A DNA stretch of 26,101 nucleotides from a virus. A model generated the notes under the pieces. It did no database searches, was not told the origin of the DNA, and saw only the letters and a list, made by a program, of their open reading frames with translations. Location of the stretch: positions 7 through 26,107 of the IMG/VR virus record IMGVR_UViG_3300002231_001788. One strand, written 5' to 3'. Positions 36 to 26,101 of the stretch are shown in pieces (positions within the stretch are counted from its first letter, which is position 1; each line of letters opens with the position of its first letter). The translations under genes were made by a program, and so were the position numbers.

Positions 36-1993
36 TATTCAACTCCTTGGGCTAATTTTGTTGCTGTTTGGGGCAATCTGTCGAAAATTGTTTTCAATAA
101 TTTTGTCATCTCTCCGCTATTGGGATCTAATTCTGATGCGGCTAGTATAAGATTCTTTCCTTTGCCTGTTGAAAAGAATTTCTCAAACTGTGTAATTAAT
201 GGGGCAATACCTAGAGAAGCCTTCGCCTTAAACCCATCTTGAGCTAATAAAAGCCTTTGCCCTGTTGGTGGGTTTTCCATGTACTGCCCCGCCCTTTTTG
301 ATGCTCTCATTAGACGCTTAACTCCCTCTAAATACTTTTGTTTTGCGGGTGTCATGAATATTTTAGTCTGCTCATCCAGTTTCTTTATTTGGTTGGCAAA
401 ATTAACAGGACTGTAGACCTCGCCAAACTCAGTATCAACCTTTGCTTTTTCAAGCGCAGTTTTAACTATTCCAGACTCAATCGCCTCTTTTCCTTCAGCG
501 TCCATGTGCCTGTAAAGTTTTCTGGCCTGATCGCCCTCACCATCTTTGATTAACTTTCTAAATACCCTGTCTGGGTGCTCTTCCTTTAAAAGAGCTTTTA
601 GGGTATTGCTTTCTTTAAACGGGATCACTTCTTCTCTATAATGCTTTTTTGCGATCTCATAATCCCTCTTAAGCTGTTTCCCGCCGGGAATTTGTTTTAT
701 AACCTCATCCATGTCTTTTTCGACCGCTTTTCTTACCTGCTTTAATGCGCCTCCCGCTGATGGATTCGATGTCATAAAATCTTTTGCATCTTTTCCAAGT
801 GCTTCTCTGGTTGCCCTTAATTGAGAATAGTTGGGCTTATCATCCAGTAAATTCATCTTCAGCCCCTCCAAATATTCGGTGGCGGGGTTTTTCTTTGTGG
901 TTTTAGATTTACCAGACTGCTCTAACATTTCGTCTATTGCATTTACTGTATTTTTCGGCTCAACCGTAGCCTTACCAGATCCAGCCTCAACTTTGTCATA
1001 ATACTTGGTTGCCTTTTCTTTGGCTTGTTTCTGTACTTTTTTCGCAGACTCTTTCATAGAACTGCCAATCTTTGAAAATGACTTGTCCGTCTTAAACTGC
1101 CTCCCAACTTTGTTCAATACCTTGTCTACATCTTTAGATTGAGATTCCCTGAATGAACTTAAGCCCCCGGTTTTTGACTCCATGTTTACTTCTGCTTTCC
1201 TGGTTCCCGCCTTTCCTGTGACATCACCTTTTGATAGCTTGACTCCATATGACTCAGCCAAATCCTCTAGTTCTTGTACTGAGGCACTGGCGTACCGCTT
1301 TTTAAGGGCGTTTACCACCCTCGATCCTAATTTACCTACCAGCGCACCACCGGCACCAAACAAGCTACCAAGCAGTGCGTCTGTGCTTCTCTCTTCCTCA
1401 TCCGTTCCAGACAAGGCACCAATAGCACCACCAGTGGCAGTACCCATTGCAATACCAGAAACGGGCGTTGCCAAATAAGGCACAGTACCACCCACAAACT
1501 CACCGGCACCCGTTGCAAAGTCACCCTCTGTCATTCCCTGAAAGCCTGCTTTTTTTGTTTTCATCTGCTCAAGCGATCTGCTAATACCTGAAACCCTAGC
1601 CTTTTGTTTTTCAATTAATCTGTCAAGTTGTGGTAAATCTTCCTCATCAGCGTCCAGTTTCATTTCTTCTAAGCGTGTAATATTATCTTGAAAATGTCCT
1701 TTGTCTCCTGTTTGAAAGGCTGACTTGATACCCCGCCAAGCATTCAGCATCCCCTCACCCTCACCCAAACCAAACCGGGAAAAGCCCGAAAGGGCTGAAA
1801 ACTCTTTTTTTCTGGCTCGTGTGATCTTCTTTTTTCTGCTTTCTCTCATTATCTGGGCCATATCTGCCCGATCCATATTGGCTAATAAATCAGGCTTTTT
1901 CTGCGCCACCATCTGAATTAAATCAGTATCATCTAAATGGGCATATTCAGGCTTTCTCTCCCTGACTTTGTTGGCAAATTCGTTCACTCTCAT
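35..1993 (-). CDS. Putative DNA-ejection (internal virion) protein, 652 aa
   Basis: Last complete gene of the structural operon. The N-terminus (about residues 3-40) has a short helical segment of the kind seen at the start of phage internal virion proteins (FANKVRERKPEY, then DDTDLIQMV). A basic stretch follows at 52-63. Residues about 165-222 form a long Gly/Ala-rich hydrophobic region that could insert into a membrane, as expected for a P22 gp16/gp20-like ejection protein. The remainder is Lys/Glu-rich and predicted helical or coiled coil. No lysozyme or transglycosylase motif is evident. The start is supported by an AAAGGTG ribosome binding site. Position after two other candidate ejection genes supports the role; the exact P22 equivalent cannot be set from sequence alone. 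Confidence 0.7.
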   Translation of the reverse strand: MRVNEFANKVRERKPEYAHLDDTDLIQMVAQKKPDLLANMDRADMAQIMRESRKKKITRARKKEFSALSGFSRFGLGEGEGMLNAWRGIKSAFQTGDKGHFQDNITRLEEMKLDADEEDLPQLDRLIEKQKARVSGISRSLEQMKTKKAGFQGMTEGDFATGAGEFVGGTVPYLATPVSGIAMGTATGGAIGALSGTDEEERSTDALLGSLFGAGGALVGKLGSRVVNALKKRYASASVQELEDLAESYGVKLSKGDVTGKAGTRKAEVNMESKTGGLSSFRESQSKDVDKVLNKVGRQFKTDKSFSKIGSSMKESAKKVQKQAKEKATKYYDKVEAGSGKATVEPKNTVNAIDEMLEQSGKSKTTKKNPATEYLEGLKMNLLDDKPNYSQLRATREALGKDAKDFMTSNPSAGGALKQVRKAVEKDMDEVIKQIPGGKQLKRDYEIAKKHYREEVIPFKESNTLKALLKEEHPDRVFRKLIKDGEGDQARKLYRHMDAEGKEAIESGIVKTALEKAKVDTEFGEVYSPVNFANQIKKLDEQTKIFMTPAKQKYLEGVKRLMRASKRAGQYMENPPTGQRLLLAQDGFKAKASLGIAPLITQFEKFFSTGKGKNLILAASELDPNSGEMTKLLKTIFDRLPQTATKLAQGVE

Positions 1994-3397: not shown

Positions 3398-4990
3398 TTA
3401 CGCACCTCCAAAAAATGTTCCTAACAGCCCTGCCACATTCCCGGCCCCTTGCTGTCTCGCATTTGCACCACCGACAAGTCCTGCCGCCTGTGCATTCGCT
3501 CCACCGTACATGGCATCAGTTATATTAGCACCGTAGGACTGCCCCAGGTTAGCTAAGTTCTGGTTAGCAAGCATATTCATGTTTGCCAGCCCCGCAAGGT
3601 TGTTGTAGTTCTGCTGGCCCTGCTGGTTATACATATTGTAATTCTGCTGGTTGGCGGCTTGGTTTGCTCCTTGTGCGAACTGCCTGTCCTGCTGGTTCAT
3701 GCCCTGCCCTGTCCAGTAGTTGGCGTTATTCATGTTCTGGGCCATTATGTTATTCTGGTTGGCCATATTCTGCCCGAATTGAAAGGCGTTCTGTCCGTAT
3801 TGGTTGGCCATGTTGCTCTGGTTTGCATCTATGCCCGTTCCGAACTGATAATTTCCTATTGCTGCTTGGTTGGCTAGGTTCTGCTGTTGAGCGTCTAAGC
3901 CCATTCCAAATTGATACTGGTTCTGTCCAAACTGGTTTGCAAGGTTGCTCTGCTGTGCGCCTAAGTTAGCCCCGAATTGATATTGGTTCTGTCCAAACTG
4001 GTTAGCCCTGTCGGCCTGTCCTGCACCAAAACCCCTGTCACTCTCAAACTGCCCTCTGGCTCGGTTGAATTGGTTCCCGTAGTCCTGTGCCGCTAAACCA
4101 CTCGCATATTCGGCAATCTCCTTATCAGTGCCCCCGGTGAATCTTCTGCCCTCTGCTGAAGCCCTGCCCTCAATTGCCTTAATTCCCTCATCCCTTGCAA
4201 ACTGATAACCGGGACTCTCTTCATAGTTAAAGTCGAAATTTCCTGCATTTGCCCTCTCGAACTGTGGCCCCTGTCCTGCGTTGTACTGCTGGAATTGTGG
4301 CCCTGCATCCCTCCGAAATTGGTTGAAGGTAGGATCGGCACCCCTCTGGAATTGGTTGAAGCCGGGATCGGTTCCCTGCTGGAATTGGTTGAACCCCGGC
4401 GCACCCTGTGGCTGTCCACCCCTTACTTGGGCTAGACTCTGCCCCCCTTGTGGGGTTCCGTGCTGTTGCATCCATGCGTTCTTATCTGCTTGGTAGTTTT
4501 GATACACATGCTGCCCCGGTTGTGGGCCATAATTCACACCACCACCCATTATCCCCCCGTTTGGGGGTGTAAATGCTGGTTGCCCGTACTGTTGGGCTTG
4601 GTATTGCCCTGTCTGAAACTGACTTGGATCTGTCTGGAATTGCCCTGTGTTTGTCATATTCGACAAATTGTTGTAATTCTCTGCACCAGTGAAAGGGGCC
4701 AGATCACCTCTTGACTGACTGTACATATCCTGGTTGAAGTTTATCGCATTATTAGCGGCATCTTGCTGTATCCTTGCGGCTTCAATTGCTGCGGCTTCTG
4801 AGTTTCTGCCAAGAAGATCACCTAATGGCCCCTCATCGGCTGAACCCATTGCACCACCCGTAAAATGCCCTAAAAGTTCACCTCCGCTTTTACCAGTACC
4901 ACCAGCAACACCGCCCACAACACCACCCAGCGGCCCACCAATTAGAGTTCCATACCCCACACCTTTTGCTACATCCCACCAATCAGCCAT
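3398..4990 (-). CDS. Gln/Asn-rich putative DNA-transfer (ejection) protein, 530 aa
   Basis: The N-terminus (residues 9-52) is Gly-rich and hydrophobic and could insert into membrane. Residues about 64-90 look helical. Residues about 110-250 are Gln/Gly/Pro/Phe-rich with short FNQF repeats. Residues about 257-315 contain a block I recognise from P22 gp7-like and other podovirus DNA-transfer proteins: SPGYQF, then KAIEGRASAEG, GGT and QDYGNQFNRA. Residues about 327-414 hold four 22-residue repeats with an ANQFGQNQYQFG core, and the C-terminus is again Gln/Asn-rich, ending in Gly/Ala. The start has a strong AGGAGG ribosome binding site. The composition is far from the neighbouring genes, and long antisense and alternate-frame open frames here are by-products of it. 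Confidence 0.72.
   Translation of the reverse strand: MADWWDVAKGVGYGTLIGGPLGGVVGGVAGGTGKSGGELLGHFTGGAMGSADEGPLGDLLGRNSEAAAIEAARIQQDAANNAINFNQDMYSQSRGDLAPFTGAENYNNLSNMTNTGQFQTDPSQFQTGQYQAQQYGQPAFTPPNGGIMGGGVNYGPQPGQHVYQNYQADKNAWMQQHGTPQGGQSLAQVRGGQPQGAPGFNQFQQGTDPGFNQFQRGADPTFNQFRRDAGPQFQQYNAGQGPQFERANAGNFDFNYEESPGYQFARDEGIKAIEGRASAEGRRFTGGTDKEIAEYASGLAAQDYGNQFNRARGQFESDRGFGAGQADRANQFGQNQYQFGANLGAQQSNLANQFGQNQYQFGMGLDAQQQNLANQAAIGNYQFGTGIDANQSNMANQYGQNAFQFGQNMANQNNIMAQNMNNANYWTGQGMNQQDRQFAQGANQAANQQNYNMYNQQGQQNYNNLAGLANMNMLANQNLANLGQSYGANITDAMYGGANAQAAGLVGGANARQQGAGNVAGLLGTFFGGA
3749..4012 (-). repeat. Four 22-residue (66-bp) tandem repeats inside the Gln/Asn-rich gene
   Basis: Translated residues about 327-414 divide into four 22-residue units, each starting near ANQ and carrying a YQFG or FQFG core followed by an acidic or amide-rich QQ/NQ end. 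The units are similar but not identical, with single-residue substitutions and one unit reading AAIGN in place of FGQNQ. A 22-residue period suits an amphipathic helical repeat. Confidence 0.75.
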
Positions 4991-25247: not shown

Positions 25248-25347
25248 CGCCTATTCTCCATTGGTTGGGGTTATCCGCTTCCGATTCCGTCTCCGCTTCC
25301 GATTCCGTCTCCGATTCCGTTTCCGTATCCGCTTCCGCTTCCGTCAT
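25222..25347 (-). CDS. Possible acidic dipeptide-repeat protein, 41 aa
   Basis: ATG at 25347 follows the stop of the DUF6948-like gene by three bases. The peptide starts MTEAEADTETESETESEA and continues as Glu alternating with Thr, Ser or Ala to residue 24, then DNPNQWRIGDGRYRMGM. The ribosome binding site is weak (GGAAAG at a long distance). Its end overlaps the 75-aa gene by 26 bp. It could be a real acidic micro-protein or only an open frame through a hexanucleotide repeat. Confidence 0.4.
   Translation of the reverse strand: MTEAEADTETESETESEAETESEADNPNQWRIGDGRYRMGM
25274..25344. repeat. Hexanucleotide (TTCCGN-type) tandem repeat, 71 bp
   Basis: The stretch is built of TCCG-containing hexamers with variable last bases. 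It contains an exact tandem duplication of the 18-mer TCCGCTTCCGATTCCGTC (25274-25291 and 25292-25309). It is in frame with the acidic ORF, so length changes by six bases would keep that frame. Confidence 0.85.
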
Positions 25348-25350
25348 GTG

Positions 25351-25713
25351 TCACGCTTTCCATACATCGACCCCATCCAGGCTTTCTTTCGCTTTGTCGG
25401 TAAGGCTTAGAATTTCAATGGCCTCTGTCAATGTGACAGTGTCCACGATTTCAGGAAATTTGCATTTACTTTTATCGGGCGTTCCGCTTTGAGCGCACTC
25501 GCTTAAAGACGCTCCGAACCATCTCCACATTCTACGGGCCTTTTTAAGAACAGCCGTTTTGCCCTCAAGGCTTTTCAGGTATCCGTAAAAAACACCGGCA
25601 GAATATGTTCGCACAATTACTGCCTCCATACCATCCAGCTTTTCAGCCTTTTCGGGAATACTGTCTTTTCTGACGTATTCAATTTCATTTATTTTTAATG
25701 TATTTGGTTCCAT
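25351..25713 (-). CDS. DUF6948-like phage protein, 120 aa
   Basis: Contains AVIVRTYSAGVFYGYLKSLE near 33-52, then LKKARRMWRWFGASLSECAQ near 64-83 and VTLTEAIEILSLTDKAKESL near the end. These match what I remember of the DUF6948 family, common in phages and of unknown function: VRTYSAGV, NARR-W-W-GA-SL-E-A and EI-LTEAIEI. ATG at 25713 has AAGGAG seven bases upstream; the ATG at 25719 is too close to it. A 120-bp stretch with a possible micro-ORF lies upstream. Confidence 0.78.
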   Translation of the reverse strand: MEPNTLKINEIEYVRKDSIPEKAEKLDGMEAVIVRTYSAGVFYGYLKSLEGKTAVLKKARRMWRWFGASLSECAQSGTPDKSKCKFPEIVDTVTLTEAIEILSLTDKAKESLDGVDVWKA

Positions 25714-25728
25714 AATCATTCTCCTTTG

Positions 25729-25839: not shown

Positions 25840-26101
25840 TTATACATAGTCAATTTTATAAGATTTGTCGGCTACACATATTTTCTTACCTTTAATAATA
25901 ATACCGCCGATTTGTGATTCGATGACACCTCCATCCACAGACTCGATGCTCCCTCCATCCACAGACTCGATGCTCCCTCCACGCACAGACTCGATGCTCC
26001 CTCCATACACAGACTTGATGACACCTCCATCCACAGACTCGATGCTCCCTCCATACACAGACTCGATGCTCCCTCCACGCACAGACTTGATGCTCCCTCC
26101 A
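25840..26101 (-). CDS. Octapeptide-repeat protein, 3' end only (truncated by the window)
   Basis: An open frame enters from the right edge and ends at TAA 25840-25842. The visible part is nine octapeptide units, GG-S/V-I-E/K-S-V-x, followed by a short end domain (KICVADKSYKIDYV). The last position varies between Tyr, Asp and Arg. Gly-Gly turns with alternating Ile/Val suggest a narrow beta-solenoid. No signal peptide can be judged because the start is outside. An in-frame GTG at 26082 is inside the repeat and is not the likely start. Function unknown. Confidence 0.75.
   Translation of the reverse strand, partial: GGSIKSVRGGSIESVYGGSIESVDGGVIKSVYGGSIESVRGGSIESVDGGSIESVDGGVIESQIGGIIIKGKKICVADKSYKIDYV
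25885..26101 (-). repeat. 24-bp tandem repeats coding for the octapeptide, nine units visible
   Basis: Units of 24 bp run from the window edge to about 25885. Seven are nearly identical and differ mainly in the last codon (TAT, GAT or CGT), one base changing Glu to Lys (GAG/AAG), and Ser to Val (AGC/GTC). The two units nearest the stop (GGVIESQI and GGIIIKGK) are more degenerate. The array may continue beyond the window. Confidence 0.9.

Follow-up and report, generated by a model that had tools for sequence, protein, structure and literature searches.

Does a phage gene that ends in a run of 24-bp repeats, differing from one another at only a few codons, encode a surface that the phage diversifies, or is such a run the slippage-prone tail of an unimportant gene? 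The question is raised by one end of a 26,101-nucleotide stretch of viral DNA, positions 7 to 26,107 of IMG/VR record IMGVR_UViG_3300002231_001788 (hereafter the window), whose contig terminates within the repeats. The phage is P22-like in its portal and coat proteins (Pfam PF16510 and PF11651). We argue here that the array, far from being junk DNA, probably serves as a binding surface that diversifies, because the N-terminal domain of the gene is present in dozens of phages with equally changeable tails, some of which are rewritten by a diversity-generating retroelement (DGR). The more specific reading towards which we lean is that the array is a variable C-terminal beta-solenoid module of an early-region phage protein, interchangeable, diversified and putatively ligand-binding.

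The repeat array and its gene

The frame that holds the array (minus strand, 25840-26100) is open and coding, and the features of this end of the window are collected in Table 1. TRF reports a period of 24 with 7.2 copies, 88% matches and a score of 271 at 25928-26101; the self-identity at period 24 is 0.87 for 25916-26101, and the highest value reached by 20,000 first-order Markov sequences was 0.469. The units read GGSIKSVR GGSIESVY GGSIESVD GGVIKSVY GGSIESVR GGSIESVD GGSIESVD GGVIESQI, after which come the cap and the stop codon.

Table 1. Features of the repeat gene within the window
Feature	Position	Strand	Basis
C-terminal part of hypervariable repeat protein gene	25840..26101	(-)	open frame; gene runs off contig end
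Tandem array, eight 24-bp / 8-residue units, consensus GGSIESV[DRY]	25909..26100	(-)	TRF, codon table, shuffle test
C-terminal cap GGIIIKGKKICVADKSYKIDYV and stop codon	25840..25908	(-)	conserved in L048, L056

The initial annotation had counted nine octapeptide units that differ at one codon and at one Glu/Lys position. The array is real, but the part of it inside the window comprises eight units, of which seven are regular and the last is degenerate; a ninth is discernible as GGIIIKGK. The variation was correctly placed at position 8 (codons GAT, CGT and TAT; three Asp, two Arg, two Tyr and one Ile) and at position 5 (six Glu, two Lys), but position 3 also varies (six Ser, two Val); the remaining positions are nearly invariant. 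In the window array a single codon is thus strongly variable, and two further positions each alternate between two residues. The degeneracy close to the stop codon had been taken as the mark of homogenisation from one end; it belongs instead to a conserved C-terminal cap, which has counterparts in the relatives L048 (GGVIIYPNDKKIVVADPNYKLELF) and L056 (GGIVIFKDGDSKRIVVADKRIKLEIF).

The N-terminal end of the gene was obtained from a near-identical contig, IMGVR_UViG_3300002231_000340 (36,895 bp; 99.73% identity to the window over 24.4 kb), which carries the array at each of its two ends, as is expected when a genome is circular and its assembly was interrupted within the repeats. Here the N-terminal part (L003:7662-8099 in this contig) follows a Shine-Dalgarno-like AAGGAG ahead of the ATG (L003:7662) and reads MCNFFSAVV...DHHSDILEKFGIKDD...FVKVEYTP...VDQDFIPEWY...LKDSTIESVD GGVIKSVY GGSIESVR GGSIESV. 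The 24-bp repeats therefore do lie in a protein-coding phage gene, as had been proposed, and this gene has a separate N-terminal domain: a conserved region of about 110 residues (MCxFKS...DSH...FVRxE...VDQDxxPDW) is followed by at least about 12 octads, since on our reading of the sequence the two contig ends cannot overlap within the array, and then by the conserved cap. Over the stretch readable in both phages the two arrays are identical, which counts against diversification; scanning twice for exact DNA matches revealed no strain variant besides the known contigs.

Several other features of these genomes deserve mention. Window positions 48-1724 do not align to the near-identical contig, which elsewhere is 99.7% identical; this mosaic patch replaces most of the open reading frame (35-1993) of a P22-like DNA-transfer (ejection) protein. 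The gene next to the repeat gene (25351-25719) has a DUF6948 domain (PF22253, 1.2e-28) of unknown function. Two different hexanucleotide tracts flank the repeat gene, one on each side in circular order: a TCCGCT-type tract at window 25274-25345 and an AAGCCG/AAGCCT tract at L003:7430-7605. In-frame tandem repeats of 66 bp and 33 bp (window 3867-4003 and 4305-4393) lie inside a Gln/Asn/Gly-rich open reading frame (3398-4990). Just upstream of the repeat gene is a true pentapeptide-repeat gene (L003:6036-6773; PF00805, 2.3e-34), and the phage thus has two unrelated solenoid genes near each other.

The N-terminal domain and its C-terminal partners

The N-terminal domain gave no match above noise in Pfam, PHROGs or NCBIfam and no convincing sequence match in the PDB. 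It occurs in gut phages, and a profile search placed it at over 50 non-redundant loci of phages and prophages; the matches in bacterial genomes are to Bacillota, mostly MAGs, and plasmids gave none. Judged by its sequence, the window gene is a member of this family, whose signature is MCxFxS...DSH...FVRxE...VDQDxxPxW: the domain of the 99.7%-identical contig (L004:3001-3336, the same gene as that at L003:7662) aligns with 53 others, and C2, S6, H25, E47, P50, W63, D68, P73 and W75 are invariant or nearly so in diverse members. With the query genomes counted in, the domain occurs in 3 of 391 genomes of the same class and 2 of 397 of the same family, few enough to indicate that the gene is mobile and does not belong to the core. 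Some apparent relatives were discarded: L005-L007, from a single-protein search with the domain, are false matches to an unrelated protein through a shared EKFGIKDD peptide, and the matches of a GGxIxxV DNA pattern to L046, L049, L050, L051, L054 and L057 are chance Gly-rich frames.

What follows the domain differs widely from member to member and is mostly repetitive or hypervariable. We analysed 38 octapeptide or nonapeptide arrays, of the types GGTIxxV, SATVxA, SSQVGEM, NATSxH and others, a set that includes L053 and L056, where the N-terminal domain is absent or was not seen. Other ends are LRR-like (L013, L017), MORN-like (L034; PF07661) or consist of the C-type-lectin domain DUF6273 (PF19789), counted in 19 records, with matches that pass the curated cut-off in L018 and L025 and are weaker in L020 and L021. 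The ends of L028, L031 and L015 are weakly periodic or not periodic at all, and these members count against the reading that we prefer. Arrays of the GGTIxxV type are also found joined to an unrelated N-terminal domain (L053:5914-6627) and an SSVSGG[DY][RSI] octad array lies in another protein (L058), so that the solenoid module moves between families.

The DUF6273-type relatives are full, bona fide DGR targets. Across 16 distinct VR/TR pairs, 223 of the 231 mismatches fall at template adenines; the template repeat lies about 490 bp downstream, and in 18 loci an Avd-like open reading frame and then a reverse transcriptase (RT), both identified by PHROGs, follow. Of the 19 DUF6273 records 17 have the RT, and none of the 41 array or other records does. 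In a tree of the N-terminal domain, unrooted and built on few columns, 18 DGR members form a single branch (SH-aLRT 87) that is nested in a well-supported group (99) which also holds nonapeptide arrays; modules have therefore been swapped. The presence of this DGR-diversified domain on the same N-terminal domain is an independent argument for a selectable surface of the variable kind that the initial annotation proposed.

Known DGR variable proteins (C-type-lectin/DUF6273 proteins, the small 'tgt2' proteins of PMC10743442 and the Faecalibacterium prophage targets of PMC11792537) likewise join a constant N-terminal part to a hypervariable C-terminal surface, and in one branch it is this very N-terminal domain that bears such a DGR domain. 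The window protein differs from them in its tandem-repeat array of predicted solenoid fold, for which no RT or template repeat was found and whose variation ordinary mutation and the shuffling of repeats account for. The window gene was itself considered as a DGR target and is disfavoured as one, its variation not being adenine-specific and the 36.9-kb near-identical contig (G027), searched in place of the window phage, having no RVT_1 match. In the open-access literature, whose coverage is incomplete so that an earlier mention elsewhere is possible, we found no description of the domain family or of an array/DGR interchange on one domain; taken singly, DGR lectins, beta-solenoids and variable repeats have all been known before.

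Genomic neighbourhood and predicted fold

Array genes are mostly located among early genes and not among tail genes. The commonest PHROGs among their 132 near neighbours are repressors, the Sak4 annealing protein, SSB, Gam and anti-repressor; helicase also occurs. Among the best 25 of 148, terminase is represented once and tail families are absent. In the window phage itself the terminase gene is only about 4 kb away from the repeat gene, which counts against the reading that we prefer. The DGR-type genes have sigma factor-like, transposase, nucleotidyltransferase and unknown genes as neighbours, and tail genes do not figure among them. The sequences show no evident signal peptide, in keeping with an N-terminal domain that is probably cytoplasmic, and together with the early neighbours this favours an early, probably intracellular, recognition protein whose surface diversifies.

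It is unlikely, in our judgement, that the protein is a virion or tail adhesin, a receptor-binding or decoration protein that would retarget the particle as is thought for most phage DGR targets. In its favour, tailspikes often contain beta-solenoids, and the DUF6273 C-type-lectin DGR targets of gut phages are as a rule taken to be receptor-binding (PMC10743442, PMC11792537). Against it stand the mainly early neighbours of the array genes, the transposases, sigma factors and nucleotidyltransferase beside the DGR-type genes, and the lack of any PHROG tail family that matches the N-terminal domain. Variable-number tandem-repeat surface proteins and beta-solenoid tailspikes or adhesins share with the window protein the in-frame change of repeat number and the predicted solenoid; the window gene differs in lying among early phage genes and in having no signal or virion-attachment domain that we could find.

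The array protein is predicted to be a beta-solenoid, as the initial annotation had suggested, and not to be disordered. The relative L048, which has the window's repeat type and cap, was modelled at full length by AlphaFold2 from an alignment of 35 relatives, the window array included; the result (pLDDT 86.9, pTM 0.76) is a confident beta-solenoid in which every unit supplies a strand of six residues and a turn of two. By VIA this model resembles a synthetic beta-solenoid (4yc5; Z 11.1, rmsd 3.4 over 131 residues) and, at Z 9-10, the MfpA and Qnr solenoids. A Foldseek search of the PDB with the whole model returned nothing at E<0.001, and its three matches in BFVD (one uncharacterised phage fragment and two poxvirus proteins) are uninformative on function. 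The N-terminal domain of the window phage, modelled alone (pLDDT 84), had no Foldseek match and resembles no solved fold convincingly, which counts against the reading that we prefer; exosome/RNase PH subunits, the best VIA candidates at Z 4.9, scored too low to be trusted.

The likeness to MfpA and Qnr, and the presence of a true pentapeptide-repeat gene nearby, would suit a nucleic-acid mimic, an anti-restriction protein or gyrase modulator whose solenoid imitates DNA, but we find this improbable. Pentapeptide repeat proteins are likewise beta-solenoids of short peptide repeats; the repeat here, however, is of 8 or 9 residues and not 5, with a different motif, strongly variable positions and a separate N-terminal domain, and the A(D/N)LXX repeat of PF00805 is absent from the array, which has no Pfam match. 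Moreover, the arrays are inconsistently acidic (22 of 37 are net negative and 10 of 37 net positive, with a mean of -0.18 per unit), and a mimic of DNA would need neither diversification nor replacement by a DGR lectin.

Change in the arrays and its putative role

The number and the order of units differ between close relatives, in agreement with the changeable array first proposed. L101 and L104 are 99.98% identical over about 4.7 kb and fully identical over the opening 300 bases of the gene and through the N-terminal domain, yet their arrays differ by exactly six units, a difference that could reflect assembly collapse over an 81-bp internal duplication. In L083 and L090, paralogues about 5 kb apart on one phage contig (IMGVR_UViG_3300031111_000008), the DNA of the N-terminal domain is 99.7% identical and the arrays are reshuffled. 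Several arrays of the family run off contig ends, and short-read assembly thus conceals their length. Codon changes at positions 1, 2 and 3 number 114, 155 and 40, against 134, 140 and 35 for random mutation, a fit for which directed mutagenesis is not needed; over all columns, non-synonymous and synonymous codon steps number 275 and 58. A test for amino-acid excess on the variable columns only is partly circular and was given less weight.

The hexanucleotide tracts close by might raise the suspicion that the array, too, is a simple repeat slipping passively at the end of a gene where little depends on it, yet this is harder still to credit: core positions are fixed across the arrays while a few columns vary, synonymous change is the rarer kind overall, the predicted fold is confident, the N-terminal domain and cap are conserved, and the DGR provides a parallel solution. 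Least probable by far is a DGR acting on the repeats themselves through adenine-directed reverse transcription, for although the third base is retained in many variable codons, the array and other records lack an RT, the codon-position spread is that of random mutation, and silent adenines, such as that of the GGA codon, remain fixed.

If the array is instead a diversified solenoid module of an early-region protein, as we prefer, a constant N-terminal domain, about 110 residues long and probably cytoplasmic, would carry a rigid beta-solenoid, to which each 8-residue repeat would contribute a short strand and a turn. The hydrophobic residues and those of the turns would be held fixed, and a few positions per repeat, whose side chains presumably point outward, would be Tyr, Asp, Arg, Trp, Cys, Lys or Glu. 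In-frame gain, loss and shuffling of repeats would result when 24-bp units that are almost alike recombine with each other, a process in which the phage recombinases encoded nearby may assist, and selection would favour new combinations of side chains. The array would then be a putative ligand-binding surface, quick to change its length and chemistry as a host or rival-phage ligand changes, and its role would equal that which the DGR-hypermutated C-type-lectin domain has in related prophages, where it is joined to this N-terminal domain.

More tentatively, this widespread and unnamed family may be an intracellular variable recognition protein of the infected or lysogenic cell, in which a constant effector domain is combined with either of two diversity modules, an octa- or nonapeptide solenoid or a DGR lectin, and tracks a changing target, for example a defence or rival-phage protein. 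The DGR-bearing members sit in long prophage-like contigs, several apparently from isolate genomes, and the ligand could therefore be sought directly in culture. The shared N-terminal domain links two routes to diversity, tandem-repeat recombination and hypermutation by reverse transcription, suggesting that phages use them interchangeably, and it draws attention to a phage protein that is diversified and, for the most part, encoded away from the tail genes.
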